Assembly: GCA_903861005.1 (NCBI GenBank)
Contig: CAIOSP010000181.1
Span: 1 to 64,000 of the forward strand
Source: an uncultured Pseudomonadota bacterium
GTDB lineage: Bacteria > Myxococcota_A > UBA796 > GCA-2862545
Length of the DNA: 64,000 bases
Direction of reading: 5' to 3'
Shown: piece after piece, positions 15,237 to 55,392 of the stretch
Position numbering within the stretch: position 1 is the stretch's first letter
Layout of the letters: every line of letters begins with the position of its first letter
Program-made: the position numbers and the translations under genes
The notes under the pieces: model-generated
The model's database searches: none
Told to the model about the DNA's origin: nothing
The model's input: the letters and a program-made list of their open reading frames with translations, nothing else

Positions 15237-15250
15237 CGGGGGTCTCCAAG

Positions 15251-15326: not shown

Positions 15327-16091
15327 TTGAAGCAGGTGGATGCATTCGGTCGCACGGACTGCGGTCCGGTCCGCGACAACAACGAGGACGCGCTCCTGCT
15401 GGATCCCGAAGCGGGCATCTTTGTGGTGGCCGATGGCATGGGCGGACACGCGGCGGGCGAGGTCGCGTCGGACATGGCCGTACGCGCCGTGCACGACATC
15501 CTCATGGGCGCCGGTGACCCCGACGAAACACGTCTGGTGCGCGACATCGAGTCGATCGACCCCGCCGACGTCATGCGCGAGCGCCTGCGCTACGCGATGA
15601 ACCAGGCCTCGCACCAGATCCGACGCGCCGCCGACGCCAACCCGTCGCGCCGGGGCATGGGCACCACGGTGGTCGTGCTGGTGATCGACGCGGGCCGCGC
15701 CCACCTCGCCCACGTCGGCGACAGCCGCGCCTACCTGTACCGCGCCGGTCGAATTGAGCGCCTGACGCGCGACCACACCGTCGTGCAGAACGAGATCGAC
15801 CAGGGTCGCCTGACGCCCGAGCAGGCGCGTCGGCTCCCGCACCGCAACATCCTGTACCAGTCGGTCGGCTTCAACGGCCCGGTCGAGCCCGACACCAGCA
15901 CGCGCACTGTCCAGGCGGGCGACGTGTTCGTCCTGTGCTCCGACGGCCTGACCGACGTGCTCGACGACGAGGCCATCGGCGCGGTGATCGGCGCGCACCG
16001 TCCGGACGCGCTCGCGGACGCGCTGACCGAGACGGCGCTCGACGCGGGCGCTGAGGACAACGTCACGGTCGCGGTGGTCGTCGTTCACTAG
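15327..16091 (+). CDS. PP2C-family Ser/Thr protein phosphatase
   Basis: A 254-residue, single-domain Mg/Mn-dependent phosphatase of PP2C (Stp/PrpC) type. The family motifs are in order: GPVRDNNEDALL, VVADGMGGHAAGE (metal-binding Asp), RRGMGTTVVVL, HVGDSRAYLYR, LCSDGLTDVL and AEDNVTVAVV, which contains the C-terminal metal-binding Asp. Length matches the stand-alone family and no membrane segment is present, so it should be cytoplasmic. The TTG start at 15327 is preceded by GGAG 8 nt away; no in-frame ATG exists close by. Divergence from the kinase operon suggests it reverses phosphorylation made by those kinases, a common pairing in bacteria, though the real substrates cannot be known here. 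Confidence 0.93.
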   Translation: MKQVDAFGRTDCGPVRDNNEDALLLDPEAGIFVVADGMGGHAAGEVASDMAVRAVHDILMGAGDPDETRLVRDIESIDPADVMRERLRYAMNQASHQIRRAADANPSRRGMGTTVVVLVIDAGRAHLAHVGDSRAYLYRAGRIERLTRDHTVVQNEIDQGRLTPEQARRLPHRNILYQSVGFNGPVEPDTSTRTVQAGDVFVLCSDGLTDVLDDEAIGAVIGAHRPDALADALTETALDAGAEDNVTVAVVVVH

Positions 16092-16102
16092 ACGTCCGCT
16101 TA

Positions 16103-16126
16103 GGTCGACCGACGCTTCGGTCGACC
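16103..16126. terminator. Hairpin in the PP2C/DUF4340 convergent gap, GTCGAC repeat family
   Basis: GGTCGACCGA, loop CGCT, TCGGTCGACC: a perfect 10-bp stem 11 bases after the phosphatase stop, in the 89-bp convergent gap. No T-tract follows, so it is not a classical intrinsic terminator. Its right half plus GGCGG (TCGGTCGACCGGCGG, 16117-16131) recurs exactly at 60496-60510 in another convergent gap, so it may belong to a small REP-like repeat family. Confidence 0.5.
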
Positions 16127-16180
16127 GGCGGTCGCGCATGCCGGGCCGCCCTTCGGGGGCGACCGCGGCGGCGGCGTGGT

Positions 16181-33763: not shown

Positions 33764-33799
33764 ACGGGATGATCCCCCATGTTCGGGGGGTCATCCCGT
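33764..33799 (+). terminator. 15-bp stem hairpin between rpmA and obgE
   Basis: A 15-base arm beginning ACGGGATGA (33764-33778), loop ATGTTC, and its complement ending TCATCCCGT (33785-33799), fully paired with one G-T pair. Only a weak T-rich stretch follows (TCGTACTTTCC), so it is at best a leaky terminator. It would lower obgE, rsfS and rlmH output relative to the ribosomal proteins, or act as an RNA processing site. Confidence 0.65.
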
Positions 33800-33829
33800 T
33801 CGTACTTTCCGGGCACGAGTGAGCACCCA

Positions 33830-34840
33830 GTGCAGTTCATCGACGAAGTGGTCATCTACATCCGCACCGGCAAGGGCGGGGACGGTCACGTCTCCTTCCG
33901 CCGGGAAAAGTACGTTCCCCATGGCGGTCCCGACGGCGGTGACGGCGGACGTGGTGGCAACGTGGTCTTCGAGGCGGTGTCCCGCAAGAACACGCTGATC
34001 GACTACCTGCGCGCGCGTCACCACTTCGCGGAAGACGGCGAGAAGGGCGGCAACAGCCAGCTCTACGGCGCGGGCGCTGAGGCCAAGGTCCTGCCGGTCC
34101 CGTTGGGCACGCTGATCTACGACGATGAGACGGACGAGCTGCTGGGCGAGCTGATGAACGAGGGCGAGCAGCTCACGTTCCCGGGCGGCAAGGGCGGCCT
34201 GGGCAACATGCACTTCCGGTCGTCCACCAACCAGACGCCGCGTCAGTTCCTCCCCGGCGAGCCCGGCGAGGAGCGCACGCTGCGCTTGGAGCTCAAGCTG
34301 CTGGCGGACGTCGGCCTGCTTGGCTTCCCCAACGCCGGCAAGAGCACGTTCCTGGCTCGGGTCAGCGCGGCGCGTCCCAAGATCGCCGACTACCCGTTCA
34401 CCACGCTCGTGCCGCAGCTCGGCGTCGTCGTCCTGTCGGACGAGCAGACCTTTGTGCTGGCGGACGTCCCGGGTGTCATCGAGGGCGCAGCCGACGGCGC
34501 TGGCCTCGGCGTCCAGTTCCTCAAGCACCTGGAGCGCTGCAAGTGCAGCATCCATCTGGTGACGGCGGACGACGAAGACGGCGACCCGGTCCACCAGCTC
34601 AAGACCCTCAACGAGGAGCTCAAGGCCTTCGGCGGGGCGCTCGGTCAGCAGCCGCAGATCGTGGCGCTCAACAAGACCGACGTGATGTCCAAAGCGGACG
34701 TCACCAAGTGGGTCAAGAAGCTCGAGAAGGCCACCGGCGCCCGCGTCTTCCCCATCTCGGGGATCACCGGTGACGGGGTACCCGCGCTCATCGCCACCGT
34801 GTGGCAGGTGCTTGCGCTTCGACAGGGATCCGGCGCATGA
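33830..34840 (+). CDS. obgE: GTPase ObgE/CgtA
   Basis: A 336-residue ribosome-assembly GTPase. The glycine-rich Obg fold covers residues 1-158 (FIDEVVIYIRTGKGGDG, FRREKYVPHGGPDGGDGG). The G domain has G1 GFPNAGKST, switch region and G3 DVPGVIEGAA, and G4 NKTD, with ISGITG near the end. There is no C-terminal OCT extension, as in many Gram-negative Obg proteins. The start is GTG at 33830, giving VQFIDEV, the normal N-terminus; the frame is open to 33779 but those codons lie in the hairpin. The stop overlaps the rsfS start (ATGA). Confidence 0.96.
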   Translation: MQFIDEVVIYIRTGKGGDGHVSFRREKYVPHGGPDGGDGGRGGNVVFEAVSRKNTLIDYLRARHHFAEDGEKGGNSQLYGAGAEAKVLPVPLGTLIYDDETDELLGELMNEGEQLTFPGGKGGLGNMHFRSSTNQTPRQFLPGEPGEERTLRLELKLLADVGLLGFPNAGKSTFLARVSAARPKIADYPFTTLVPQLGVVVLSDEQTFVLADVPGVIEGAADGAGLGVQFLKHLERCKCSIHLVTADDEDGDPVHQLKTLNEELKAFGGALGQQPQIVALNKTDVMSKADVTKWVKKLEKATGARVFPISGITGDGVPALIATVWQVLALRQGSGA

Positions 34841-35836: not shown

Positions 35837-36931
35837 ATGGCGCGCGCGTTCAACTTCTCGGCCGGCCCCGCCCTCATCCCCGAGCCCGTGATCCGCGAGG
35901 CGCAGGACGCGCTGTGGGAGCTCGAAGGCACCGGCATGGGCCTGCTGGAGATCTCGCACCGCAGCAAGGCGTTCGAGGCGGTGATGGATCGCGCCCGCGA
36001 CCGCCTGACCCGCTTGCTCCGCCTGTCGCCGGATCAAGAGATCCTCTTCCTGCACGGCGGCGCGCGCACGCAGTTCTTCCAGGTGCCGATGAACCTGCTG
36101 CGCGGCGCTCGCGCGACCTACTTCGACACCGGCGTGTGGTCAGCCGGCGCCATCGAGGAGGCGGCGCGCTTTGGCACCGTCGACGTGCCGTTCAGCAGCA
36201 AGTCCACGGGCTACGATCACGTCCCGCGCGACGGGTCGTGGGGCGAGCTGCCCGCGGGCACGCGCTACCTGCACTACACCGCGAACAACACGGTGGTCGG
36301 CACCGAGTACGACTACGTGCCCACCGTGAAGGACGCCTGGCTGATCGCCGACGCCAGCAGCAACATCCTCTCACGTGACCTCGACGGCTCCAAGTTCGAC
36401 CTGCTCTACGCGGGCGCGCAGAAGAACCTGGGCCCCGCGGGCGTCACGCTCGTCGTCATCCGCAAGACGCTGCTCGACGCCGCGGATCGCGACCTGCCGA
36501 GCATGCTCCGCTACGACATCCACGCGGCCAAGAAGAGCCTTTACAACACGCCCGCCACCTTCGCGATCTACGTGGTCGAGCGGATGTGCGCGTGGATCGA
36601 GTCCCAGGGCGGCGTGGCCGCGATCGAGGACCGCAACGCCCGCAAGTCCGCGCGCCTCTACGCCGCGATCGACCAGAGCCCGCTGTTTCAGGGCAAGGTC
36701 CGGCCGGACTCCCGCTCGCGCATGAACGTCACCTTCACCACCGGCACGCCAGAGCTGGACGCCAAGTTCGTCGCCGAGGCGAACATCAACGGATTGCTTG
36801 GCTTGAAGGGCCACAGCTCGGTGGGCGGTCTGCGCGCCAGCTTGTACAACGCGCAGCCCGAGGAGGCGGTCGAGGTGCTGGTCGGCTTCCTCGCGGACTT
36901 CGCGGCGCGCAACTCGGTCGGCAAGGCCTGA
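35837..36931 (+). CDS. serC: Phosphoserine aminotransferase
   Basis: A 364-residue PLP-dependent class-V aminotransferase of serine synthesis, converting 3-phosphohydroxypyruvate to phosphoserine with glutamate as donor. The start MARAFNFSAGPALIPEPV is the family N-terminus. LEISHRSKAF, LFLHGGARTQFFQVPMNL and the PLP-binding Lys in YAGAQKNLGPAG are all present, and the C-terminal LLGLKGHSSVGGLRASLYNA is typical. GGAGG precedes the ATG by 5 nt. It begins 101 bp after rlmH and probably has its own promoter; no serA or serB is seen nearby. Confidence 0.96.
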   Translation: MARAFNFSAGPALIPEPVIREAQDALWELEGTGMGLLEISHRSKAFEAVMDRARDRLTRLLRLSPDQEILFLHGGARTQFFQVPMNLLRGARATYFDTGVWSAGAIEEAARFGTVDVPFSSKSTGYDHVPRDGSWGELPAGTRYLHYTANNTVVGTEYDYVPTVKDAWLIADASSNILSRDLDGSKFDLLYAGAQKNLGPAGVTLVVIRKTLLDAADRDLPSMLRYDIHAAKKSLYNTPATFAIYVVERMCAWIESQGGVAAIEDRNARKSARLYAAIDQSPLFQGKVRPDSRSRMNVTFTTGTPELDAKFVAEANINGLLGLKGHSSVGGLRASLYNAQPEEAVEVLVGFLADFAARNSVGKA

Positions 36932-37096: not shown

Positions 37097-40000
37097 ATGG
37101 ACATCGGCATCGGCGTTCCGCCACCTCCCAAGTCGTTCGTCGGGCGACAGCAGGAGTTGGAGTACCTGGGTGGCTGGCTGCGGCCGGGTCGCAGCCTCGC
37201 GCTCGTCGCGGAGGCCGGCACCACCGGCGTCGGCCGCACCTCGCTCGCTCGGGCCTTCGCCCACGAGACCCGCGCCTTCAAGGGCGTGCTCGGGTGGACG
37301 CTCCAGGCCGACGGCCCCCGTCCCCACGCCGCGCTGCGTCGCTGGGCGCTCCGCCTGGGCGCGCCGATCCGCGGTCGCATCAGCCTGGGCCAGCTCCTCG
37401 CTGAGATCTCCACCGCCTTGCGGGCCGCGGGCCCCGTCCTGGTCGTGATCGACGGCGTGCGCGAGCGCGACGTCAGCGTTGTCCGCCGCGTGATCACCGC
37501 GCTCCCGTCCGACGCGTGCGTGCTCTACACCATCGACGACCTCAAGGCGGCCGACCGCATCGGCGCGCGCACGCTCGAGATCGCGCCCCTGGGTGACGAC
37601 GAAGGCATCGAGCTGCTCGAGGCTGTGATCGGTTCGGCCGTGCCCAGCATCATCGCGGGCGCCATGCTCCAGGCCGTCGGCTACCTGCCACTCGGCGTCG
37701 TGTTGGCCGGTTCGCGCCTACGTCAGGCCACCGGCGAAGAGTCCGGCTCTTGGGGCGGTGAGGTTGATCCGCGTCGTGCGGCGCGCCTCGGCGGCCCGAT
37801 CGGCGTCGCCCGATCCTTCCTCGACGCCTACCGTCGCCTGGGCGAGGGCACCGCGCGCGTGCTTCGCGCCACCGGCTTGTTCCAGCACGGCCCCATCCAC
37901 GCCGAGCGCCTGTCCGCGCTGCTCGGGTTGGACCTCAAGGTCGCCACCACCGAGCTCGAACGCCTCGCGGGCTACGGCATCATCGAGCCGCTCGACACCG
38001 GCGCGTGGATGTCGCACGCCCTGGTGTCCGGCTACGCGTACCGCCTGCTGGAGGAGTCCGGCGAACTGGACCGCCTGCAGAAGCGTAGCCTGTCGTTGGT
38101 GCTCCAGTCTGAGGGCGCGCCCGGCGGCGGCCTGACCCCGTCGGACATCCTCGACGTCGTGCACCGCTCGATCGAGCGCGGCGACCTGGAAGACATGACC
38201 GCGCTCGCCACCCGCATCGGCGACGAGCTGGCGTCGTGGTGCTTGGAGGGCGCGCTGGCGCTGGTGGGCGAGGCCCGCGAGCGCGCGCAGGCGACGCGCA
38301 ACCGCGCGCTCGGCATCCTCAAGACCCGGCACGAGGCGCTGCTGGAGTCGGCGGCCTCGCTGGGCGTGAAGGACGAGGACGTGCGCCTGGACGGCTCCGA
38401 GCCGGATGAGGAGGTCTTTGACGTCCGCCCCGTGAACGCGCCCGCGCCCGCGCCGGCCAAGGCTGGCGGGCGTTCGGACGACGCGGTGGCCGACCCGCTC
38501 ACCGAGGAGCTTGGCGGCTTTGCGCCTGCGCCCGCACCCGCTGCAGAGCCCGTGCGCGCGCCGGTGACGCCCGACGAGCCCACCTTCGCCGCTGTGGTGC
38601 CCACGCCCAAGCCGCCCGCCGCCGACGCGTGGTGGGTGGTTCGCCCCGACACCGCCGAAGCGGCCGCCGCCAAGAAGGCGTCCGAGGACTGGAGCACGCC
38701 GCCGCGCGTCAGCTCCGCGTCGCAGAACCAGCTCCGCGCCGCGGTGGACGAGGTCGAGCGAAACCCCGTCGCCCCCGACCCCTCCGGCGCGCAAGACGAG
38801 CAGGAGAAGACGGTCGGTCGCCCGGTGCGCGCGTTCCAGCGCGGCGCGCCGGATGGCCCCGATGACGCGCGCATGTACGGCGCCGCGAAGCACGCGGCGA
38901 CGCTGCGCGGAGACTCGACCGAGCAGGTCCGCGCGGACTGCCTGGTGCGCGCGCGCGCCGCGTCCTCGTCGGCGGCGGACATCCAGGATCGCCTCTCGCT
39001 TCGGCTGGAAGAGGGCGAGCGCGACCTGCGCGGCCGCCAGGACCCGGTGCTGCGGGCGCCGATCGATCGCATCACCGTGCTGACCCGCTCCGTCGTCGAT
39101 CAGGTTCGTGCCGCGCGCGCCTCGATCGCCGTGATCGAGCACGCCGGAGATCTGGAGCGCATGCGTCGCGCGGCCGAGCGCGCGGAGCGCGCCCGGGACG
39201 TGTCGGTGGAGGCCGTCGAAGAGGCGGACGCGCTGTGGACGGCGTTCTACGACTCGCTGTCCAACCTGCAGGAGTCCGCGGCGCGTCGACGCGCGGCCGT
39301 GCAGCGCGCGCGCAACGATGTCGCCGCCGCGCGCACGGCGATGGACGAGGCCACGCACCGCGTCAACGCTTGGCGCTCGGTCGACACCACCGCCGACTGG
39401 TCGCAGGTCGACGTGCTGCTCACCAAGGCCACCGAGGCCTTCGCGCGCGCTGAGGTCGCCTCGGCCACGCTGGAGTCGGGTGGAGATCCGGAGACCGCGT
39501 CGTCGGTCGCGTCGGACGCCCGTCGCGACGCGGAGCGCTTCGCCCGCGAGGCCACCTCGCTCGGCAACCGCGTGGTGGAGACGTCTCGTGAGATCAAGCG
39601 CACCCGCGAGGTGCAGCGCGAGGTCGCGGACCACGTCGATCGCATCGACCGCGACGCGATCAGCTTCGACGCGCTGCGTGACGAGCTGCTCGTGCGGATG
39701 GCGGGCAGCACCGACGACGCGGCCGCCGGCCTGTCCCGTCGCATCGACGCGCTGACGACCCGCGTGCACCGCGGTCGCCGCTTCGCGTCGTCTCAGGGCA
39801 ACGCGAACGTGGACGCCGACGGCACCGAACGCCTAGCGGCCACCGCGCGTGACGTGGGCGCTTGCCTCGCCGAGATCCAGCGCCTGGCCACAGAGGTCGA
39901 CGCGTGGGTCAAGTCTCGCGGCTCGGCCGAGGTGGACTCGGCGCGTTTCGAGCTGATCGCCGAGTCGCTGACGCAGCTCGCGATGATGGAGTCGACGGGG

Positions 40001-41980
40001 GCGGTGGCGCGTCGCGCGTCCAGCCGCGCGTACGGTGCGGCCGCCGGCGTGGACGACGCTGAGGTCGGGCGCCTGGTGGGCCAGCTTGAGTCAGCGGAGG
40101 TCGCGCTGCGCGACGCGCTCGAGTCGGCGCGCGGCGCGGTCGACGCGATCGAGTCTGCGCAGTCCAAGGTCGGCGCTGAGGCGGCGGCGCAGTCTGCGAA
40201 TGCGGTGATGGACGTCGCGGTGGTCCACGCCGATCGCGTGCGCTCCACCGCTGAGACCCTGATCCAGGCGGCGGACGCGCGTCGTGCGTCGCTGCTCGAC
40301 ATGCTGCGCGAGGACGGTCGCGCGCTGGCTGAGCGCGTGCTGCAGAGCACCGTCGACGTCACGCGGGTCTCCGACGAGGCGAACGTGCTCGGGTCGTCTG
40401 CGGGCGCAGGCGGAACGCCCTGGTTGGAGGCGATCTCCGCGGCCCTGGCGCGCGCGACCGACGCGCGCGAGGCGGTGCAGGAAGGCGAGCGTCGCCTGCG
40501 GCACTACGGCGATCCGGGCGTGCTCACGCGCGTGGTGGACGCCATGCAGGACGCGTCGGACGTGTCGTCTGCGGCCGTGATCGAGGTCGAGGTCGCGCGG
40601 GCGAAGCTGCGCTCCCTGGCCGGTCGCGCGGCGACCGAGGCGCGCGCCGAGGTGAAGACCGAGCCGATGTTCGAGTCGGACGAGCGCACCGATCCGACGG
40701 TCATCCTCTCGCCGATGTCGGAGCGGACGCTCACGTCGATCACCGTGGCCCGTATCTCCGAGCTGGACGGTCTGGACGAGGACGTGTCGGTGGCGCTGCC
40801 CGCGGGTTCGCGCGTCGAGGCGACCCTCCCCGTGGTCGAGGTCACCGCAGGCCGCGGCGGCGCGTCGGAGCTGACCGTCCCGTCGGTGACGTCGAACCTG
40901 CCCTTGGGCGAAGAGGCCTACTGGGTCGACGAGCACACGTCGGAGCTGGAGTTCGCTCCGGTGATCACGCCCGCCGTCGTCGCAGCTGCCCCCGCCGTCG
41001 CTGAGCCCGCGCTCGACGACGAGGACGGGATGACGGTGGTCGACAAGCCGGTGGAGGTCGACTTCGACGAGTTCGACATGATGGAGGCGCCGGTCACCGA
41101 CGCCGACCGCGCCGAAGCGGAGGCCGCCGTCGCGTGGGCCAAGGTCCGCGCCGCGCGCGCTCGCTCGTCGTTCGACGGCGCGCGTCGCGCGCTGACGGTG
41201 TCGTCCGATCTTGCGGTGTGGGCCTCGCTGGTCGAGGGTCGCTCGATGATGGCCGCGGAGGCGAGCCGCCTCGACGACGTGATCGACTCCGTGCACGGCC
41301 GCTTGGCCTGCGCGCACCGCGTCAGCTTCCTGGCCGAGGCGGTCATCCGCCTCGCGAGCGAGTTCCGCCCGGGTCCGCTGCCGCCCGAGGTGCGCCGTGA
41401 CCTGCGCGAGCGCGCGGTGCGCCCGGTGCAGACCTACGACCCGGCTGTGGTCCGGGATCTGGCGGCCTGGGATGTGGCGGTCGACGCGTGGTCGGCCGGC
41501 TGGACCGAGCGCAGCGTCCTCGACGCCCGCGACACCGCCCGCGTGGCGATCGCGGTCGCGCGTCGCGCGCGCCCGGGTGATCGCACGGCGGCGCACGGTG
41601 CGGCCCGCGACGCGGTGGACGCGCTCGCCGCGGCGCTCCGCGAGGCGGCCCGCGTTCGTGACGCCGCGTGGTCGGACGTGAACGCCCGCGGCGCGGGCCA
41701 CGCCCGCGCGGCCTGGGCGGCGCTGCGCGTGGAGGACCTCTCCGGTGCGCTGGAGCAGGCCCGCGCGGCGGCGCAGATTTCGGCGGCGCCTGAGGTGCGG
41801 GTGACCGCGTCGCTGGTGCTGCGCGCGCTCGGTCGTGTGCATGAGGCCGAGGCCTGCCTGGAAGGCGTCGACCACCCGCTCGCGGCGCGCGTGCGGTCGC
41901 TCGACGCGGGGCCGCTCCCCGTGGAGCCCGTCCACCGCAGCGTCCTCGCGGCGGTCGAAGCGCGCGACGCGATCCACTGA
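37097..41980 (+). CDS. Giant STAND/NB-ARC-like protein with long helical tail
   Basis: A 1627-residue protein. Residues ~10-330 resemble an NB-ARC/STAND nucleotide-binding module: FVGRQQELEYLGGWL, P-loop GTTGVGRTS (about residues 41-49) and Walker B VLVVIDGV (about 115). A winged-helix-like region follows (RVLRATGLFQHGPIHAERLS). The P-loop Lys is Arg. Residues ~430-560 are Ala/Pro-rich. From ~600 on the chain is nearly all Ala, Arg, Glu, Asp and Val in long charged helices with coiled-coil character. An acidic, Thr-containing stretch (ERTDPTVILSPM, GMTVVDKPVEVDFDEFD) lies at ~1195-1340. No signal or membrane segment is seen. The gene is monocistronic. Function is unknown; a signalling scaffold is a reasonable idea. 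Confidence 0.8.
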   Translation: MDIGIGVPPPPKSFVGRQQELEYLGGWLRPGRSLALVAEAGTTGVGRTSLARAFAHETRAFKGVLGWTLQADGPRPHAALRRWALRLGAPIRGRISLGQLLAEISTALRAAGPVLVVIDGVRERDVSVVRRVITALPSDACVLYTIDDLKAADRIGARTLEIAPLGDDEGIELLEAVIGSAVPSIIAGAMLQAVGYLPLGVVLAGSRLRQATGEESGSWGGEVDPRRAARLGGPIGVARSFLDAYRRLGEGTARVLRATGLFQHGPIHAERLSALLGLDLKVATTELERLAGYGIIEPLDTGAWMSHALVSGYAYRLLEESGELDRLQKRSLSLVLQSEGAPGGGLTPSDILDVVHRSIERGDLEDMTALATRIGDELASWCLEGALALVGEARERAQATRNRALGILKTRHEALLESAASLGVKDEDVRLDGSEPDEEVFDVRPVNAPAPAPAKAGGRSDDAVADPLTEELGGFAPAPAPAAEPVRAPVTPDEPTFAAVVPTPKPPAADAWWVVRPDTAEAAAAKKASEDWSTPPRVSSASQNQLRAAVDEVERNPVAPDPSGAQDEQEKTVGRPVRAFQRGAPDGPDDARMYGAAKHAATLRGDSTEQVRADCLVRARAASSSAADIQDRLSLRLEEGERDLRGRQDPVLRAPIDRITVLTRSVVDQVRAARASIAVIEHAGDLERMRRAAERAERARDVSVEAVEEADALWTAFYDSLSNLQESAARRRAAVQRARNDVAAARTAMDEATHRVNAWRSVDTTADWSQVDVLLTKATEAFARAEVASATLESGGDPETASSVASDARRDAERFAREATSLGNRVVETSREIKRTREVQREVADHVDRIDRDAISFDALRDELLVRMAGSTDDAAAGLSRRIDALTTRVHRGRRFASSQGNANVDADGTERLAATARDVGACLAEIQRLATEVDAWVKSRGSAEVDSARFELIAESLTQLAMMESTGAVARRASSRAYGAAAGVDDAEVGRLVGQLESAEVALRDALESARGAVDAIESAQSKVGAEAAAQSANAVMDVAVVHADRVRSTAETLIQAADARRASLLDMLREDGRALAERVLQSTVDVTRVSDEANVLGSSAGAGGTPWLEAISAALARATDAREAVQEGERRLRHYGDPGVLTRVVDAMQDASDVSSAAVIEVEVARAKLRSLAGRAATEARAEVKTEPMFESDERTDPTVILSPMSERTLTSITVARISELDGLDEDVSVALPAGSRVEATLPVVEVTAGRGGASELTVPSVTSNLPLGEEAYWVDEHTSELEFAPVITPAVVAAAPAVAEPALDDEDGMTVVDKPVEVDFDEFDMMEAPVTDADRAEAEAAVAWAKVRAARARSSFDGARRALTVSSDLAVWASLVEGRSMMAAEASRLDDVIDSVHGRLACAHRVSFLAEAVIRLASEFRPGPLPPEVRRDLRERAVRPVQTYDPAVVRDLAAWDVAVDAWSAGWTERSVLDARDTARVAIAVARRARPGDRTAAHGAARDAVDALAAALREAARVRDAAWSDVNARGAGHARAAWAALRVEDLSGALEQARAAAQISAAPEVRVTASLVLRALGRVHEAEACLEGVDHPLAARVRSLDAGPLPVEPVHRSVLAAVEARDAIH

Positions 41981-41998: not shown

Positions 41999-43687
41999 TC
42001 AGGGCCTGGGGAGCAGCGTCACGTCGAGGATCTGATCCGCGTCGACGTCGGTGAGCGTGGTGGTGCGGCCGTCCGGCCAGAACAACTCCACCTTGTCGAG
42101 GCGGGTGGCGCCGCCCAAGCCGAATATCACCTCGGGCGGACCGGAGGAGTACATGCTGGTCCCGCCGGCGTGCACCCAACGGTTCCACACCCGAGCGCCC
42201 GCGGTCACGCGCACCCGGGTGGAGATGCCGAACGTGTTTGGCGGCGGCGCGTGCGTTCGGACGCGCAGCCACGTCCCGTCGCCGCAGCGGGACACGTAGA
42301 GCAGCGGCGGCGAGTCGAGCAGCCGCTTGAGCACGTCCGGCCAGCCGTCGTTGTTGAAGTCGGCGACCACCAGCCCGCGGCTCGGCTCGCGCGCGGCCAT
42401 TCCCCAGGCCACCCCCTCATCGTGGAACTGACCGTCCTCGCCCTGCACGAACACGGCGTCGGGCTCCCAGTCGGCGTCATGCCACTCGTCCCAGTAGCCA
42501 AAGTTCATCAGGACGTCGGCGTCTCCGTCCACGTCGAGGTCGACCACCTCGGTGCCCCACCCGAACTCTTGCAGGTCGCCGTCGCCCTCCCAGGTGGCGA
42601 CCAAGCCGCGGCTCGACGCGCCTTCGAACCACCCGATGGGCGTGGAGAGCAGCAAGCTGGCGGCCTTCCACGAGGACTGCACGAAGTCGGGCCGCTCGTC
42701 GCCGTTGAGATCGCCGACGCCCAAGCCCATGCCGGCGAACGGGATCTCAAACCCGGACTGGTTGTCCACGTCGAGCGACAGGCCGGTGGGTGTGTTCCAG
42801 AACAGGCGGCTCGGGCGCGACCAGCCGTAGTCGTTGACCATCAGCAGCTCGGGCTGTTGATCGCCGTCCAGGTCTTGGAAGCTCGACATGAAGGTGTAGC
42901 CGCCCTTCACGTCGTCGGGGATCAGGTCTGAGCGGTCCAAGAACATGGCGCCGCCCAGATTCTCGAAGAGCCTGGGTGGGTCGGCGATCTCGGCGAGCGG
43001 CGTGTCGTGGGGGTTCTCCGGGGTGGGGCCGTAGCTGCCCACGAACAGGTCGAGGTCGCCGTCGCGGTCCATGTCGCCCCAGGCGCTGGTCTGCGCGCGC
43101 GTCGACACGTCGATCCCGGAGCCAGCGGTGGCGTCGGCGAACACGCCGCGACCGTCGTTGAGCAGCAGCAAGCTCGGCTTGGACCAGCGCGTGACGAACA
43201 GGTCGAGGTCACCGTCGCCGTCGACGTCCACGACGGTCGCGCCGGTGGACATCGACAGGTCCACGCCGGGGAAGCCTTCGTCCACCAGGTTGGTGAACGT
43301 GCCGTCCGCGAAGCCCACGCGGTACTGCGACGTGAACGCCCCCGGTAGGAGCATGTCGAGCAGGCCGTCGCCCGTCAGGTCGGCCACGACCGCGCCCCCG
43401 CCGACCAAGCGGTATTGGCCCTCGACGAGGTTCTCAAACGGCGCGTCCTGGATCGCCCAGCGGGCCGCGTCACGCTGCGTGGGATCGGCGCACGTGATCA
43501 CGCCGCTCGTGCGGACCGTGTGGTCGGGCGGCGGCGGGACGTCGGTGTCAGGCGGGACGTCGGTGTCGGGTGGGACGTCGGTGTCGACGGCGACCGCCAC
43601 GTCCTGGTCCGTGTCGACGACCGGCGCGTCAGGCACGCCGCAGCCGACCAGCGCGAGCGCGATCCAGGATGGACGAAGCGGCGGCAC
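41999..43687 (-). CDS. FG-GAP/VCBS repeat lipoprotein with ASPIC/UnbV end (CRTAC1-like)
   Basis: A 562-residue surface lipoprotein. The signal ends in the lipobox ALVGC (Cys16). A linker follows with three tandem DTDVPP units. Residues ~95-480 contain calcium-binding FG-GAP/VCBS blade motifs: ADLTGDGLLDMLLP, DVDGDGDLDLFV, DMDRDGDLDLFVGS, DLNGDERPDF, DLDVDGDADV and DFNNDGWPDV, suggesting a beta-propeller. The C-terminal ~80 residues are the ASPIC/UnbV domain (VTAGARVWNRWVHAGG, then KVELFWPDGRTTTL). Such proteins are thought to be extracellular and bind Ca2+; no enzyme activity is known. The gene is convergent with the giant STAND gene (18 bp gap). Confidence 0.88.
   Translation of the reverse strand: MPPLRPSWIALALVGCGVPDAPVVDTDQDVAVAVDTDVPPDTDVPPDTDVPPPPDHTVRTSGVITCADPTQRDAARWAIQDAPFENLVEGQYRLVGGGAVVADLTGDGLLDMLLPGAFTSQYRVGFADGTFTNLVDEGFPGVDLSMSTGATVVDVDGDGDLDLFVTRWSKPSLLLLNDGRGVFADATAGSGIDVSTRAQTSAWGDMDRDGDLDLFVGSYGPTPENPHDTPLAEIADPPRLFENLGGAMFLDRSDLIPDDVKGGYTFMSSFQDLDGDQQPELLMVNDYGWSRPSRLFWNTPTGLSLDVDNQSGFEIPFAGMGLGVGDLNGDERPDFVQSSWKAASLLLSTPIGWFEGASSRGLVATWEGDGDLQEFGWGTEVVDLDVDGDADVLMNFGYWDEWHDADWEPDAVFVQGEDGQFHDEGVAWGMAAREPSRGLVVADFNNDGWPDVLKRLLDSPPLLYVSRCGDGTWLRVRTHAPPPNTFGISTRVRVTAGARVWNRWVHAGGTSMYSSGPPEVIFGLGGATRLDKVELFWPDGRTTTLTDVDADQILDVTLLPRP
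43533..43586 (-). repeat. Three tandem 18-bp units encoding DTDVPP
   Basis: Three nearly identical 18-bp units at 43533-43550, 43551-43568 and 43569-43586 in the linker after the lipid-anchored Cys. Each is in frame, so copy-number change would alter linker length by six residues without a frameshift. Confidence 0.85.
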
Positions 43688-43746: not shown

Positions 43747-45279
43747 CTACGCCGTCTCCTGGTCGAGCACGGCGACCGCACGCGCGGCCAGCTCCTCGGC
43801 GTCGTCGGCGCTGTCGCCGATCGCCACCAGGCCGACCTTCCCGAACTGCGAGAGCGCGCCCATCAGGTGGAACACGACGCCGCGCTCGGTGGGGGCGTGG
43901 AAGAGCAGCCCGTGAAGAACGGCGATGTCGATGAGGTCGTCCGGGCGCAGGCCGACGTAGCGCTGGCTCGTGATGTTGTCGGACGCGAAGTAGAACTTCT
44001 CGGCGCCCGACGCGCTGTGGAAGGTGCCGCGGCTCACGTCGTAGCGGCCGTCGGTCAGGAACTTGAGCGTGAGGAACGGGTGGGTGGTGCCGCCCTTGCG
44101 CAGGTTGATCTCGATCGCGAAGTGACGCCAGCCCCGCTCGCCGAGCACGGACACGTAGTCGATCCCAAAGCGGCCGATCACGCCGCGCTGCGCGAGCTCT
44201 TCGGCCACCTGCATGGCGCTCGCCTGCACGTCGGTGCGGTAGGCGCCGTCGGCGGGGAAGCGCGCGCCCAGGAACACCTGACCGTCCACGCCACCCAGCA
44301 CCTGATCGTGCGTGGAGATCGCCTGCGGCTCGCCGACCGCGTTCACGCGGCACTGCACGGACGGGCTCGCCTTCACCTCGCCGTCGATCCACTCTTCGAC
44401 CACGCCCTGCATGTCGCGCAGGCTGGTGGACCAGTCGTCCCAGGTCTCAGACGCTGACACGTACTGCAGCTGCGTGGGCAGGCGGTCGAGGATGCGCGCC
44501 GTGAGCTCATTCTCCGACAAGTTTGGATCGAGGCCGTCGAACGAGAGGACCGCGTTGCCTTCACCGGAGAAGCCGTCGTTGAGCTTGGTGACGGCGCGGC
44601 GCGCGTTCGGGCGTGCGCGTCGGATCGCGGCGAACGCGCGCGCGATGTCCTGCGGATCGCGCAGACGCTCAAAGCCGAACGGGAAGTCGATCCCGGCGGA
44701 GCGGAACACCTCGCGGGCGCCCGACTTGGTGCCCAGGTCGTACAGCGTGGGGTCGACCGCGTGCAGCGGCAGGCCCAGCCGCACCGCCAGCGAGCGCTCC
44801 AGCGTAGACGAGTTGAAGCAGACCAGGTGGCTGGTCTCGGGGTGGGCGATCTCCTCGCGGATGCGCTCGATCAGGCGCGGGCGGCGCAAGATCTTCTCGC
44901 TGAGCGGCGCCACGCTGCTGTCGGCGCAGTGCAGCATGACCAGGCGCGGGCGGGCGTGACTGGCGGGGACGCCGGGCAGCATGGCTAGGTAGTAGTCGAC
45001 GATGCCGGGGTCGATCGCGCTGCTGGTGACGTAGATCACCTTGGTGCGCGGCTGCTTGAGCAGCATCAGGTTCACCAGCATGCGCTCTTCGTAGTGCCAC
45101 ACGCCGGTGATCTTGTTCAGCTCACGCGTGGGGAGCGACAGCGACGGCACGATGACGCACGTCTGCGGCGTGGCCGCGTCGGCGGACAAGATCCGGAACA
45201 GGTCCGGGGTGCGTTGTTGGAGCGCGGCAAAGGCCGCGAGCTCCTCGACTGAGCCAGGGGTGAACATGCCGGCGAGCAT
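43747..45279 (-). CDS. ATP-grasp carboxylate-amine ligase, PGM1/peptide-ligase-related
   Basis: A 510-residue enzyme resembling the PGM1-related peptide ligases, which join a carboxylate to an amine via an acyl phosphate. An N-terminal pre-ATP-grasp Rossmann-like region (about 20-200) includes YVTSSAIDPGIVDYYLAML and HLVCFNSSTLERSLAVRLG. The ATP-grasp part has AVTKLNDGFSGEGNAVL (nucleotide-binding loop), VVEEWIDGEVKASPSVQCRV, and the metal-binding end AIEINLRKGGTTHPF. A C-terminal domain follows (LLFHAPTERGVVFHLMGALS). Starts at 45279 (MLAGMFTPG) or 45267 are both possible; neither has a good ribosome-binding site. Known relatives make small peptides or amino-acid conjugates, but no biosynthetic partners are obvious here. 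Confidence 0.82.
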   Translation of the reverse strand: MLAGMFTPGSVEELAAFAALQQRTPDLFRILSADAATPQTCVIVPSLSLPTRELNKITGVWHYEERMLVNLMLLKQPRTKVIYVTSSAIDPGIVDYYLAMLPGVPASHARPRLVMLHCADSSVAPLSEKILRRPRLIERIREEIAHPETSHLVCFNSSTLERSLAVRLGLPLHAVDPTLYDLGTKSGAREVFRSAGIDFPFGFERLRDPQDIARAFAAIRRARPNARRAVTKLNDGFSGEGNAVLSFDGLDPNLSENELTARILDRLPTQLQYVSASETWDDWSTSLRDMQGVVEEWIDGEVKASPSVQCRVNAVGEPQAISTHDQVLGGVDGQVFLGARFPADGAYRTDVQASAMQVAEELAQRGVIGRFGIDYVSVLGERGWRHFAIEINLRKGGTTHPFLTLKFLTDGRYDVSRGTFHSASGAEKFYFASDNITSQRYVGLRPDDLIDIAVLHGLLFHAPTERGVVFHLMGALSQFGKVGLVAIGDSADDAEELAARAVAVLDQETA

Positions 45280-45369
45280 AATGGCCGCTGTGCCGTCCGT
45301 CGCTCCCGCGCCAGACGCGCTGCACTCGGATATCGGGCGAAGGCCCAAACCAAGCCCTCCGGAGCGCCC

Positions 45370-46029
45370 GTGCACGATCTCATCTTGTCCCAAAGCCAGC
45401 CTGACGGCTCCGCCCTCCTTCGGCTGATCTTCGACCGCGCCGTCCCTGGCCATGTGGCGCCGGGCCAGTTCGTGACCGTGCACGTCGAGGGCCACAAGGC
45501 TGGCTACTTCGCGCTCGCGTCGGGCCCCGGGCAGCTCACCGAGCTGCTGATCAAGCCGCAGGGCCCAGTCGCCGAGCACCTCGCCGCGCTGCCCGTCGGC
45601 TCCGTGGTGCGGGTCTCGGACCCGATCGGCAAGGGCTTCGGCGTCGAGGCCGACGGTCGGCCCCTGGTGGTGCTGGTCAACGGCAGCGGCATCTCCGCGG
45701 TGCGCGGCCTGATCGACGCTGAGATCGCCGCGGGCCTTCCCCGTCCGGTGCACCTGCTCTACGGCGTGCTGACGCCCGGACACGCGGCCTTCCAGGAGCG
45801 GTTGGCGGCGTGGCGGGCGGCCGGCGTGGCGGTGCACCTGGTGCTCGACGCGCCGCAGGATGGCTGGGACGGGCCGACCGGGTTCGTGCAGCACCACGCG
45901 CAGCGCCTGGGCCTGGTGACCGACGCCGTGAGCGTTGCTCTGGTCGGGTTCCCCGCCATGATCGAGGAGACCAAGGCGCTCTACGCCGCCGCGGGCCTGG
46001 CGCCGGAGCGCGTCCGCACCAACTTCTAG
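45370..46029 (+). CDS. FNR-superfamily flavoprotein / oxidoreductase
   Basis: A 219-residue protein of the ferredoxin-NADP reductase superfamily. Residues ~1-95 form the FAD-binding barrel (APGQFVTVHVEG, GYFALASGPGQ). Residues ~100-219 form the NAD-binding half (LVVLVNGSGISAVRGLI, LLYGVLTPGHAAF, then VALVGFPAMIEE). The C-terminal aromatic ends as VRTNF. No iron-sulfur cysteines or partner domain are visible, so it should receive or give electrons to a separate protein. The GTG start has GGAG 6 nt upstream. It is divergent from the ATP-grasp gene, and the UbiD-family gene follows 84 bp downstream. Confidence 0.83.
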   Translation: MHDLILSQSQPDGSALLRLIFDRAVPGHVAPGQFVTVHVEGHKAGYFALASGPGQLTELLIKPQGPVAEHLAALPVGSVVRVSDPIGKGFGVEADGRPLVVLVNGSGISAVRGLIDAEIAAGLPRPVHLLYGVLTPGHAAFQERLAAWRAAGVAVHLVLDAPQDGWDGPTGFVQHHAQRLGLVTDAVSVALVGFPAMIEETKALYAAAGLAPERVRTNF

Positions 46030-46113
46030 GCTGGCGCTTCCTGTCCCGGAACGTTGCGAGCCGTCGTATCCGGGGCCTTGGATCGTTACGGCGCCAACCC
46101 CTTTGGAGGCCGC

Positions 46114-47907
46114 GTGGTCGTTCGCGACATCCCGACGTTCCTCGATCTGCTCCGCACCCGCCGTGACCTTGTGGAGGTCGAGGTCGAGGTCGACACGGAC
46201 CTGGAGCTTGCGGAGATCCACCGTCGCGTGATCGCGGCGGGCGGCCCGGCGCTGCTGTTCAAGCGGCCCAAGGGCAGCACGATCCCCGTCGTCACCAACC
46301 TGTTCGGCACGGCGGCGCGCGCGGAGCTGGCCTTTGGCACCCGGCCCAAGGACTTCGTCGAGACGGCGACCAAGCTGATCCACGAGCTGGTGCCGCCCAC
46401 GCTGGGCAAGCTCTGGCACCGCCGCGACTTCTTCGCGCAGGCCATGAAGATCGGGACCAAGTCGGTGCGCAACGCGCCGGTCATGGAGGTGGTGGAGGCG
46501 CCTGCGCTCGACCGCATCCCGATGATCAGGTCCTGGCCCAAGGACGGCGGCTCGTTCGTCACGCTGCCGCTCGTCTACACCGAGCACCCTGACACCCACG
46601 TGCCCAACCTCGGCATGTACCGCATCCAGCGGCACTCTCCGTCCACCACCGGCATGCACTGGCAGATCGGCAAGGGCGGCGGCTTTCACCACCACGTCGC
46701 GCAGTCGCGCGGCGAGGACCTGCCGGTCACGCTGTTCGTCGGCGGTCCGCCCGCGTTGATCCTGTCGGCGGTGGCACCGCTGCCCGAGAACGTGCCGGAG
46801 ATCCTGCTCGCCAGCCTGCTGGTGGGCGAGCGCCTGCGCGTGACCGACGGCCCCGGCGCCCACCGTCTGGTCGCGGACTGCGAGTTCGCGTTCGTCGGCC
46901 ACGTGAAGCCGCACGAGACGCAGCCCGAGGGTCCGTTCGGCGACCACTACGGGTACTACTCGTGGACGCACGACTACCCGGTGTTCCACGTCGACAAGAT
47001 GTGCCACCGCAAGGACGCCATCTGGCCCGCCACCATCGTGGGCAAGCCGCGCCAGGAGGACCTGTTCATCGGCGACTACCTGCAGGACCTGCTGTCGCCG
47101 CTGTTCCCGCTGGTCATGCCGAGCGTGATCGACCTGTGGACCTACGGCGAGACCGGCTACCACGCGCTCGCCGCGGCGGTGGTGCAGGAGCGCTACTCGC
47201 GCGAGGCAGTGGTGTCGGCGTTCCGCATCCTGGGCGAGGGCCAGCTGTCGCTCACCAAGTTCCTGTGGGTCGTGGACAAGCGGGTGAACCTCAAGGATCC
47301 GCGCGACGTGCTGGCGGCGCTGCTGTGCCGGTTCCACCCCGAGACCGACCTCTACGTGATCTCCAACCTGTCGATGGACACGCTCGACTACACCGGCCCG
47401 CGCGTGAACCACGGCAGCAAGGGCATCATGATCGGCGTGGGCGAGCCGTGGCGTGAGCTGCCGCGCGGCTGGTGCGGCGAGCCTCCATCGGGCATCCACC
47501 AGGTCGAGGTCTTCTGCCCAGGCTGCCTGGTGGTCTCAGGCCCTACCTGGGACGCGGAGGAGAGCCTGCCCGCGCGCATCGCGGCGGCCTTCCCCGAGTG
47601 GCCGATGGTCGTGATCGTCGACGACGCGAAAGTCGCGGTCCGCACGCCGTCGCGCTTCCTGTGGACGACGTTCACACGCTTTGAGCCAGCGGCGGACATC
47701 CACGCCGCGCGCACCCGCGTGCATCGCAACCACGTCGTCCGCGAGGGCACGATCACGATCGACGCGCGCTTCAAGCGCGAGTACCCCGACGAGCTGTTCT
47801 GCGACCCGGACACGGCCGCCACCGTCACCCGCCGCTGGAAGGAGTACTTCCCGAAGGGCGGCGTGGAGATGGGCGACTCGGACGCGGGTCACCTGGACAA
47901 GCTGTAG
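46114..47907 (+). CDS. UbiD-family decarboxylase, probably menaquinone type (MqnL-like)
   Basis: A 597-residue prenylated-FMN-dependent decarboxylase. It shows the family start RDIPTFLDLLRTRRDLVEVE, the cofactor region MYRIQRHSPSTTGMHWQIGK, KGGGFHH, the DCEFAFVGHVKPHETQPEG stretch with PFGDHYGYY, and DYLQDLLSPLFPLVMP. It is longer than E. coli UbiD (about 497) and close to the long forms annotated in futalosine menaquinone pathways. This agrees with the UbiA-like gene at 1581. I set the start at GTG 46114, just after GGAGG, because it matches the family N-terminus; the frame is open to 46054. No UbiX-type prFMN synthase is visible in the window. Confidence 0.85.
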   Translation: MVVRDIPTFLDLLRTRRDLVEVEVEVDTDLELAEIHRRVIAAGGPALLFKRPKGSTIPVVTNLFGTAARAELAFGTRPKDFVETATKLIHELVPPTLGKLWHRRDFFAQAMKIGTKSVRNAPVMEVVEAPALDRIPMIRSWPKDGGSFVTLPLVYTEHPDTHVPNLGMYRIQRHSPSTTGMHWQIGKGGGFHHHVAQSRGEDLPVTLFVGGPPALILSAVAPLPENVPEILLASLLVGERLRVTDGPGAHRLVADCEFAFVGHVKPHETQPEGPFGDHYGYYSWTHDYPVFHVDKMCHRKDAIWPATIVGKPRQEDLFIGDYLQDLLSPLFPLVMPSVIDLWTYGETGYHALAAAVVQERYSREAVVSAFRILGEGQLSLTKFLWVVDKRVNLKDPRDVLAALLCRFHPETDLYVISNLSMDTLDYTGPRVNHGSKGIMIGVGEPWRELPRGWCGEPPSGIHQVEVFCPGCLVVSGPTWDAEESLPARIAAAFPEWPMVVIVDDAKVAVRTPSRFLWTTFTRFEPAADIHAARTRVHRNHVVREGTITIDARFKREYPDELFCDPDTAATVTRRWKEYFPKGGVEMGDSDAGHLDKL

Positions 47908-51902: not shown

Positions 51903-51969
51903 ACGGGCCCCCCGTCGCCGTGCTATTCTCGGCGGGCGCCGCGAACCCTCTCCCGCTCGCCCGTTGGAC

Positions 51970-54900
51970 ATGCCCAAGGTCCCTGCCAACATCGGTCCCT
52001 ACGAGGTCATCCGCCCCATCGCACAGGGCGGCATGGCCGAGGTGTTCGAGGTCGTCGACCCGGACAGCGGCGAGCGCCGCGCGCTCAAGCTCCTCATGGA
52101 GCTCAAGACGTCGGTCAAGCGCTTCAACCGTGAGTTCGAGGCGCTCACCCGGCTGAACCACCCGAGCATCGTCCGGGTGTACCGCTACGGCTTCCACGAG
52201 AGCCACCCGTGGATCTCCATGGAGCTGCTCCAGGGCGTGCAGCTGCAGAGCCGCGTGAAGGACTTTGGCGCGCCCGGCACCACCGAGCGCACCCAGGAGG
52301 TCCTGCGCATCGCGTACTTCCTGGCCAACGCCCTGCAGTACATCCACGACCGCGGCCTGGTGCACCGAGACCTGAAGAGCGCGAACGTGCAGGTGCTCAA
52401 GGACGGCCGCGTGAAGCTGCTGGACTTTGGCACGGCCCATCTGGTCGATCCGCTGGAGCGCATCACGCAGGACGGCGACTTCGTCGGCACATTCAGCTAC
52501 GCCGCGCCCGAGCAGATCGTCGGCAGCAAGATCGACCACCGCGCAGATCTCTACGCGCTGGGCGTGCTGCTCTACCGCATGCTCACCGGCCGCCGTCCGT
52601 TCGCCGCGAACGACCCGCACAAGGTCGCCCACATGCACCTGCACGTGGAGCCTCGGCCCATGCGCGAGGGCACGCCGGAGCTGCCGCAGGCGCTCGACGA
52701 CCTAGTGCTCAAGCTGCTGGCCAAGCAGCGCAAGGACCGCCCCCAGGGCGCGGACGAGGTGGCGTCGGAGCTGGAGCGCATCGCGGGTCGCGCGCTGTCG
52801 CTGCCGGGTCTGGGCATCGCGATCAGCGAAGACCGCTCCTTCGGCCGCGCGCGCGAGCACCGGGCGCTGTGGCAGCGACTCGGCGAGGGCGAGGCGGGTC
52901 GGGTCGCGGTCGTGTACGGCGGCGACGTCGACGAGCGCAGGCGCTTTCTGCTCCAGGTGGGCCAGGACGCGCAGAAGCGAGGTCAGCTGGCCATTGTCGT
53001 GCGCCCCGCGGGCGAGCCGGCCACGCACCTGGCGCGCGCGCTCGCCGCGTGGATCCAGGGCGACGACGAGCAGGCTGGCGTGCTGCGCGAGCTGCTCCTG
53101 GGCGCCGACGGCTCGTCGCGGGCCACGCTCGTCGAGTCGATGCGCCGCGTGATCCCCGATCTGGTTGCCCGCTTGGTCATGCAGGAGACGGAGACGGTTC
53201 TGGGTGTGGAGGAGGCGCCGCACTGCGACGCCGCCGCGCTCGACCTGATCTCGCTGCTGGTCAAGGAGGCGGTCTCTCGCGGCGCCAAGCTGTCGGTCGT
53301 CGTCACCACGGAGCGCCTGCGCGCCGACGGCGTCGACGCGGTCACCAGCGTCGCGTCCGAGGTGACGCACATCCGGATGAACCCGCTCGACACGCGCGGC
53401 ACGGCGATCGCGGTCGGCCACTTGCTGCACCGTCGCCCCGCGCCCCCTGAGGCCGCGCGGCGCATCCAGCAGGCCACCGGCGGGCACCCGTCGTTGATCG
53501 AGGTCGCCGTGCGCGACATGGTCGCCGCGGGCCTGCTCACTGTGCGCGACGACGACGTGAACCGCGTGGAGTGGCCGCCTGAGGAGCAGATATCCACCGA
53601 CGTGAACCGTGGCGCCCACGACACGCTGGACACCCGCCTGGCCGCGGTGCCGGTGGCGTGGCGCTCGGTGCTTGAGGTGCTCGACGTCCTCGGCGGCAGC
53701 GCGCATCGCGCCGATCTCGCCAGCGCGCTGGGCCAGACCGAGGCGCAGATCGAGTCGGTGGTCGCCGACATGCTCGACGAGGACCTGCTGATGGTGCCGG
53801 ACGGCGATCCGGACATGGTCAAGGGCGTCGACACGCTGCTCATCCGCTACGTGGGCGCGTCCACCTCGCCGCTGCGTCGCGCGGCGATCGAGCACGTCGT
53901 GGCCGACTTCGTCGAGCGCATGCCGCCGTCGGAGCGCAACGTGCGCCTGCTGCTGGACGTGGGCCGGTCGAGCTCGGCGGTGGAGCGCGGCGTGCGCGTG
54001 GCGCGCGAGCTGGTCGCCCATGGCGAGCCCGCGCAGGCCGCGGAGCTGCTCGAAGCGCTCCGCGCGCACGCCGATCACCCCGGCCTGCCGGCCACGGTCC
54101 GCATCGAATTCCACCTGCTGTTCAGCGAGGCCGTGCACCGGGTCAAGCCGATGGACGCCCGCGCGGTGCGCGCGCTGGAGGCCGCCGAGAAACTGGCGAC
54201 CGACGACGCGTGGCGTGCGCGCGTGCGCTTGGGTCAGGCCGAACAGCAGCGCGCGATCGGTCACTACTCCAACCACCGCCGCTTCCTGATGGACGCGTGG
54301 GAGCTGCTGGAGCACTCCGAGGAGCGCAAGCTCAAGGCGCGCGTGGCGCTGGAGCTGGGCCACAGCCACGTGTACGGCGCGCAGATCCCGCAGGCGCGCA
54401 CCTGGTACGACAACGCGCTGGAAGGCGCCAACCAAGTTGCCGACCGCGAGGTCATCGAGCTCGCGCGGGTCGGCTTGGCCACCATGTCGCTCGCGCAGGG
54501 CAACGTGGAGGAGGCCGAGGTCATCTTCGAGGAGATCTCGCACACCCGCGCGTCGGACAGCCACGCGCCGGACGCGCGCTGGCTCGCGGTGGCCGGGTGG
54601 GGTCAGGCGCTGCGTCGCCAGGGCCGCTTCTCCGAGGCGTTCCCCATGCTCCAGGCCGCGCTCGCCGAGGCCCGCGACGCGCAGGCGATCACGTCCTGGT
54701 CGGCGCTCGCGTTCACGGCCGCCAGCTGCGAGCTGGACCTGATGCGCTTGGGTCGCGCGCAGGAGATCATCGAGGAGCTGGCCGCCGCGCTGGGTCCGGG
54801 CGAGCGCCTGCACCTCCGCCTGGAGACACGCCTGTTCCAGGGTCGCGTGGGTCTGGCCTCGGGGCAGCCGGTCGCCGCGTCCTTCCTGTTGGAAGAGACC

Positions 54901-55392
54901 GTCGGTCAGGCCGAGAAGGCTGGCCTGGTGCTGATCGCCGAGACCGCGCGCGCGCTGCTCGCGAGCGCGCGGTGGGCGCTCGGCATGGAGGAGGAGGGCC
55001 GCGGCCTCTACCAGAAGGCGCTGCTCGGCCTGATGAGCACCGGCGACGCGCTGTCGCTGTCTGACGCGGTCGTCGCGCGCGCGCGCGCGCTGGGCTCGAC
55101 CGAAGACCCGACCAAGGCGTTTAAGCTGGTGCGGCGCCTGCTCAACCGCTCGGCGCTGCAACCGCTCTACGTCGAGAGCCTGATGTCGGAGCTGCGCTGG
55201 CACACGTCGCACAACGAAGCGACGCTCGCGCGCCAGAGCCTGCGTGAGGTGCAGACCGCGCTCAACCGGATGGCGTCCAAGCAGAGCCTGATCGAGCAGG
55301 CCACGCTGCGCGTCCACCCGTGGGCGCACGAGATGCTGCGCGCGAGTGAGAGCCTGCCCGCGGCACCCCCGCCCGCGCCGACCCAGGGATGA
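51970..55392 (+). CDS. Ser/Thr protein kinase - degenerate ATPase - TPR protein (kinase D)
   Basis: An 1140-residue protein of the same architecture as the 5-15 kb kinases. The kinase domain (about residues 8-270) has IAQGGMAEVFEV, RALKLLMEL, HRDLKSANVQ and LLDFGTAHL, all intact. Where the relatives have Walker A, this protein reads VVYGGDVDERRRFLL (about 312-326), with no GKS/T, so the ATPase module is probably inactive. The C-terminal ~550 residues are TPR-like (ALELGHSHVYGAQIPQARTW, then GLATMSLAQGNVEEAEVIF). ATG 51970 is two codons after a possible TTG start. Its stop overlaps the start of the first bPH2 gene (ATGA), which couples a kinase to two membrane proteins. Confidence 0.88.
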   Translation: MPKVPANIGPYEVIRPIAQGGMAEVFEVVDPDSGERRALKLLMELKTSVKRFNREFEALTRLNHPSIVRVYRYGFHESHPWISMELLQGVQLQSRVKDFGAPGTTERTQEVLRIAYFLANALQYIHDRGLVHRDLKSANVQVLKDGRVKLLDFGTAHLVDPLERITQDGDFVGTFSYAAPEQIVGSKIDHRADLYALGVLLYRMLTGRRPFAANDPHKVAHMHLHVEPRPMREGTPELPQALDDLVLKLLAKQRKDRPQGADEVASELERIAGRALSLPGLGIAISEDRSFGRAREHRALWQRLGEGEAGRVAVVYGGDVDERRRFLLQVGQDAQKRGQLAIVVRPAGEPATHLARALAAWIQGDDEQAGVLRELLLGADGSSRATLVESMRRVIPDLVARLVMQETETVLGVEEAPHCDAAALDLISLLVKEAVSRGAKLSVVVTTERLRADGVDAVTSVASEVTHIRMNPLDTRGTAIAVGHLLHRRPAPPEAARRIQQATGGHPSLIEVAVRDMVAAGLLTVRDDDVNRVEWPPEEQISTDVNRGAHDTLDTRLAAVPVAWRSVLEVLDVLGGSAHRADLASALGQTEAQIESVVADMLDEDLLMVPDGDPDMVKGVDTLLIRYVGASTSPLRRAAIEHVVADFVERMPPSERNVRLLLDVGRSSSAVERGVRVARELVAHGEPAQAAELLEALRAHADHPGLPATVRIEFHLLFSEAVHRVKPMDARAVRALEAAEKLATDDAWRARVRLGQAEQQRAIGHYSNHRRFLMDAWELLEHSEERKLKARVALELGHSHVYGAQIPQARTWYDNALEGANQVADREVIELARVGLATMSLAQGNVEEAEVIFEEISHTRASDSHAPDARWLAVAGWGQALRRQGRFSEAFPMLQAALAEARDAQAITSWSALAFTAASCELDLMRLGRAQEIIEELAAALGPGERLHLRLETRLFQGRVGLASGQPVAASFLLEETVGQAEKAGLVLIAETARALLASARWALGMEEEGRGLYQKALLGLMSTGDALSLSDAVVARARALGSTEDPTKAFKLVRRLLNRSALQPLYVESLMSELRWHTSHNEATLARQSLREVQTALNRMASKQSLIEQATLRVHPWAHEMLRASESLPAAPPPAPTQG

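Follow-up and report, generated by a model that had tools for sequence, protein, structure and literature searches.

STAND proteins are generally regarded as switches operated by ATP. In the Streptomyces STAND regulator AfsR, which has a SARP-NOD-TPR architecture, the NOD and TPR parts keep the effector in check, and this inhibition is lifted when ATP binds (PMC10936776). In the plant NLR pairs RGA4/RGA5 and RRS1/RPS4, the P-loop of the sensor is dispensable (PMC9528088). Here we describe a gene from a 64,000-nt stretch of DNA (positions 1 to 64,000 of contig CAIOSP010000181.1, assembly GCA_903861005.1; hereafter the window) whose product joins a NOD with degenerate switch motifs to a long tail predicted to be largely helical (Table 1). 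Among the open-access papers listed in literature searches, we found no description of this serC-adjacent degenerate STAND family.

Table 1. Features of the gene and its neighbours, in window coordinates
Feature	Coordinates	Strand	Basis or remark
obgE	33779..34840	+	same obg-rsfS-serC neighbourhood in G006
serC (phosphoserine aminotransferase)	35840..36931	+	syntenic upstream neighbour in three genera
Whole gene	37097..41980	+	ATG start; 1,627 residues, then a stop; degenerate STAND of a single clade, with helical tail
Head, AfsR-type NOD (P-loop domain, helical domain, winged helix), residues ~14-320	37136..38056	+	profile A2 vs AfsR
Degenerate Walker A GTTGVGRTS, residues 41-49, Lys to Arg47	37217..37243	+	codons GGC ACC ACC GGC GTC GGC CGC ACC TCG
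Walker B-like LVVID, Asp119	37436..37453	+	A2; kept in 4/4 family members
Sensor-1 position, TID where AfsR has TxR	37529..37537	+	A2 and AfsR alignment
GLPL-like GYLPL, residues 195-199	37679..37693	+	kept in window protein; lost in G002, altered in G006
MHD-like MSHA, residues 305-308, opposite AfsR RFHDLV	38009..38020	+	His kept, Asp lost
Linker 1, residues ~435-607, Ala/Pro/acid-rich	38399..38917	+	low AF2 confidence where modelled; indels between two species
Helical region, residues 608-1184, helices of up to 110 residues	38918..40648	+	AF2, pLDDT 70-91 over 608-938
Linker 2, residues 1185-1334	40649..41098	+	predicted disordered, pLDDT 24-30
C-terminal helical region, residues 1335-1627	41099..41977	+	AF2; weak likeness to TPR over the final ~70 residues (TPR_2 E 0.37)
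FG-GAP/UnbV_ASPIC protein, convergent, downstream	41999..43687	-	Pfam; equivalent ORF follows the gene in L002

GC content at the first, second and third codon positions of the open reading frame is 0.776, 0.539 and 0.910, respectively, and GC3 holds at about 0.91 in each 200-codon block, as it does in the neighbouring genes; this position-specific composition and even, neighbour-like GC3 identify the ORF as the true coding frame. The same protein is encoded by a sister species in an independent MAG (CANJMY01), where it is split across two contigs (L003 and L002), with 98% identity over the head (L003) and 96% over the tail (L002). Relative to the sister species, dN/dS is 0.092 for residues 1-448 (head) and 0.117 for residues 560-1627 (tail). 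The 1,627-codon gene is intact, and purifying selection on both its head and its tail is strong.

Compared with Pfam as a single sequence, the head gave marginal matches to AAA_22, AAA_16 and NB-ARC, the last (PF00931) at E 0.036, under the Pfam cut-off. A profile of the aligned heads of the four family members (A2) matched the AfsR NOD (PDB 8k60/8jke) at E = 1.7e-12 over profile positions 16-317, an alignment that extends from P-loop to winged helix, and matched NRC1 weakly (E 0.19). The head is a descendant of an AfsR/NB-ARC-type STAND NOD and comprises the full domain. The domain starts at about residue 14; Pfam places no OmpR-type DNA-binding or BTA domain N-terminal to it, and Pfam, NCBIfam and PADLOC scans of the window protein detected no N-terminal effector domain.

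An earlier note on this DNA had proposed an NB-ARC/STAND-like head, and the end-to-end alignment with the AfsR NOD bears this out; the counter-possibility that it named, that the head is not a nucleotide-binding fold, therefore falls away. The note had also read the P-loop correctly as GTTGVGRTS, with Arg likewise in the sister species, and the frame that it described as held open over 4.9 kb does run exactly between the gene boundaries given in Table 1, with no stop and a dN/dS of about 0.1. Of the checks that it suggested, separate homologue searches led from the head to the AfsR NOD and to orthologues in two other genera, and gave no TPR/WD identity for the tail. Structure prediction returned a helical tail (pLDDT 70-91 over residues 608-938) but an unusable head (AF2 pLDDT 41), with which Foldseek found nothing significant (best E 0.07; CED-4 and ORC P-loop fragments at E > 0.07 are suggestive at most).

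The head profile also matches a stretch of a Streptomyces plasmid (E = 3e-9). This NOD-like coding stretch (L063 2001-2951; Streptomyces sp. CFMR 7 plasmid, 13972-14922) is 28% identical to the head and adjoins parA/parB, and no gene is entered there in the plasmid collection's table, which is incomplete.

Judged from the alignment of the four heads, loss of the Walker A Lys is a family trait, with the sensor-1 Arg and the MHD motif eroded too. The Lys is replaced by Arg in the genus of the window (g1), by Cys in g6 (SGMGCTT) and by Ala together with a deletion in g2 (CGGATT), and GxxxxGK[ST] is found in no family member. Where AfsR has TAR, the family has TID, TVD and FTD and thereby lacks the sensor-1 Arg throughout; the His of the MHD motif is retained in g1 only (MSHA) and is gone in g6 and g2. 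The Walker B Asp119 is invariant. An Arg in the P-loop can sometimes retain partial function and, with Asp119 invariant, the window protein may still bind some nucleotide.

Among the STANDs of the order, loss of the Lys looks recurrent, because 4 of the 28 other STAND (NOD) loci also lack it: 24 keep GxxxxGK[ST], whereas at that position L049 has R, L054 A, L055 a deletion and L057 T. All seven relatives that were scanned have TPRs, some of them weak, and each of the four Lys-less loci has at least a weak TPR. Some STANDs of the order start with a kinase or cyclase; the window protein opens directly at the NOD, with no TPR sensor detected.

For the tail, the AF2 model covers residues 560-1627 and was built from two near-identical sequences, with bundle packing uncertain. 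It predicts helices at residues 608-644, 650-682, 686-762, 769-793, 798-868, 874-901 and 907-940. Like helices are spaced by about 105-112 residues and two continuous helices exceed 70 residues, a predicted layout that resembles tandem three-helix bundles. Low-confidence linkers, rich in Pro/Gly or Val/Thr, divide the tail into two helical regions. The earlier note had pictured more than 1000 residues of helix with an extreme charge: the helical, charged and Ala-rich character stands, but the two linkers (residues ~435-607 and 1185-1334) break the helix in the AF2 model, and "extreme" is too strong for a DEKR content of 31%, which only slightly exceeds the 95th percentile for 112 local genes (27.6%; median 22.6%). 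Its view that the tail is not a usual effector or sensor holds, as Pfam, NCBIfam and PADLOC gave no TPR or WD family above cut-off.

Family scans of the tail pieces likewise placed no TPR, WD40, LRR or other family above cut-off, TPR_2 reaching E 0.37 at the extreme C-terminus. A TPR sensor was rejected for most of the tail on these grounds and on the AF2 helices of 70-110 residues. Foldseek with the tail model gave no significant match (best E 0.12); vinculin, catenin, talin, axonemal proteins, EzrA and plectin appear in the insignificant list at E > 0.1. No transmembrane anchor is evident, the maximum mean hydropathy (1.92) falling within the GLPL region of the NOD, and acid-Thr-x-Val kinase/FHA motifs in the linkers show no clear enrichment over shuffles (p 0.24, 0.38, 0.02, 0.28).

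Tails differ in length between genera, at about 1,200 residues in the window protein, 680 in G006 and 1,840 in G002, and are similar in composition; BLAST and hhalign detected no homology among the tails of the three genera beyond shuffled controls. Between the window protein and the sister species, residues 860-1159 carry about 32 replacement versus 52 silent changes, and residues 1160-1259 plus 1360-1559 about 5 versus 45 (Fisher p = 0.0003, for regions picked post hoc). Because of this low count, linker 2 ranks as one of the gene's most tightly constrained segments, with a dN/dS of 0.04 over residues 1160-1259. Linker 2 combines predicted disorder with high constraint and may hold a hidden motif or binding segment.

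The family is narrowly distributed. In scans that covered 63 genomes from the order and 379 from the phylum, matches above 500 bits occurred in only four genomes, the next reaching at most 44 bits; the 4 carriers among the 379 phylum genomes all belong to one clade and represent three genera. The G006 orthologue (L010:7445-10618, 1,058 aa) has a head 31% identical to that of the window protein, and the G002 orthologue (L019:8207-14890, a 2,227-codon ORF) one that is 26-27% identical (BLASTP E = 6e-11). The G006 and G002 heads gave no direct BLASTP alignment with each other and are linked through the window protein and their shared position. In both genomes the gene is flanked by serC on one side and by a convergent gene at the DUF1015 position on the other (confirmed by Pfam in G006, presumed from size and position in G002); the window keeps serC and obgE beside the gene, but an FG-GAP/UnbV gene lies downstream instead of DUF1015. 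In a tree of serC and obg, g1, g2 and g6 are monophyletic (support 0.995). Given the four-genome distribution, the shared position at serC and this monophyly, the gene was probably gained once and then inherited vertically.

ORFs of 1,065-1,228 residues near serC in L020, L021, L027 and L028 were considered as orthologues and rejected, being FHA-like proteins of a different family. An FHA-like protein of about 1,070 residues is itself conserved near serC/DUF1015 (L020:7819-11034, L021:6614-10300, L027:7913-10057, L028:4096-7293 and L010:11635-14598), with a weak Yop-YscD_cpl match in L010 and an adjoining kinase gene in L021. The neighbourhood in the window is kinase-rich, with three adjacent Ser/Thr-kinase genes and a fourth kinase elsewhere (5057-16139, minus strand, and 51964-55392, plus strand); AAA_16 occurs in two of the adjacent three and TPR in two. 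The C-terminal part of a frame at 43747-47499 (minus strand) matches ATP-grasp_IQCH and PGM1_C (E ~1e-13), which are uncommon in bacteria; the frame overlaps ubiD on the opposite strand, so its true start is internal. No RNA families were found in the 64-kb window.

Several readings of the protein have to be weighed. Loss of catalytic residues and a tail without a database family could point to a decaying pseudogene or an assembly artefact in the form of a chimeric frame, but that reading is refuted, and has practically no chance of being correct, given 4.9 kb without a stop, a dN/dS of about 0.1 and independent MAGs of the second species and of two more genera. In a working STAND switch, Arg47 would coordinate phosphate, the head would bind ATP/ADP and the tail would be a sensor controlling oligomerisation, the part played by TPRs in MalT and AfsR. 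The window protein does keep the Walker B Asp, the GLPL motif and the MHD His, and its NOD is the slowest-evolving large part (dN/dS 0.09); however, the orthologues show Cys or a deletion in the P-loop and lack GLPL or MHD too, the sensor-1 Arg is missing and no TPR, WD or LRR family in the tail rises above cut-off, which makes a switch rather unlikely. A cytoskeleton-like or cell-architecture protein, its tail active and its head a leftover cap, would suit the AF2 layout and the insignificant Foldseek list, both of which resemble spectrin, vinculin and EzrA bundles, as well as the free variation of tail length between genera. Such a role is improbable, since the head is constrained as strongly as the tail and the structural matches are insignificant.

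The earlier note had hinted at defence or signalling through oligomerisation. STAND ancestry is what recommends an anti-phage protein of the Avs or bacterial NLR kind, or the sensor half of a pair with a dispensable P-loop as in some plant NLRs (PMC9528088). Yet PADLOC assigns no family, its best match (E 0.36) being to JetC3 and falling in the helical tail; an effector domain was not found; and in the genome (a 97% complete MAG) no other NB-ARC protein was detected, the one weak match being the Lon protease, which leaves no evident canonical partner. The switch motifs are eroded family-wide, and the gene is inherited vertically among housekeeping neighbours, beside obg-rsfS-serC. The suggestion made in the note finds no support in these results, and defence is highly improbable; a structural or adaptor protein is more likely than a defence switch. 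A large STAND-like gene is not automatically one of defence, as this vertically inherited gene in a housekeeping neighbourhood illustrates.

We infer that the window protein is probably a clade-specific pseudo-STAND, working as a nucleotide-independent scaffold or adaptor. In such a scaffold's history, an ancestral AfsR/NB-ARC-type NOD without an N-terminal effector or the usual TPR sensor would have become established between serC and DUF1015 before the three genera split, and its nucleotide motifs would have decayed. The head would probably be past ADP/ATP switching, with nucleotide binding presumably lost, and may persist as a folded module for binding or oligomerisation; the tail of predicted helical bundles and disordered linkers could be a variable-length spacer or scaffold that gathers partners in the cytoplasm. 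A bolder form of the scaffold reading has a STAND switch of immune or regulatory origin turned into a constitutive, nucleotide-free architectural scaffold, in which the NOD is an oligomerising cap, partners are organised by a rapidly evolving helical rod 700 to 1,800 residues long and the conserved linkers possibly add kinase-site control; we hold this form only tentatively, as a minority possibility. A STAND lineage that keeps the fold under selection and discards the switch residues offers a natural test of a NOD without nucleotide.

Among described systems, the Avs/AVAST anti-phage STANDs have only the superfamily in common with the window protein, which has no PADLOC match, effector, detected TPR or defence context. 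Plant sensor NLRs can work with a mutated P-loop, but with a helper, and none is evident here. The NOD of NB-ARC proteins, APAF-1 and plant NLRs (PF00931; NRC1, CED-4) shares the motif order of P-loop, Walker B, GLPL and winged helix, whereas in the window protein the motifs are eroded and no LRR, WD40 or death/TIR effector is detected. The AF2 layout of the tail, with long continuous helices and short turns, resembles that of spectrin, vinculin and EzrA bundles; there is, however, no Foldseek match at E <= 0.001, no Pfam spectrin match and no sequence relation. The STAND-TPR proteins of the order (L007, L037, L039, L055 and L057) share the NOD but differ in having TPRs, in some cases a kinase/cyclase N-terminus and, in most, GK[ST]. 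AfsR is aligned with the head from the P-loop to the winged helix; relative to it, the window protein is without the N-terminal SARP and a detected arm/TPR sensor, has lost the Lys, the sensor-1 Arg and the MHD Asp, and carries a helix-and-linker tail of about 1,200 residues in place of the sensor.
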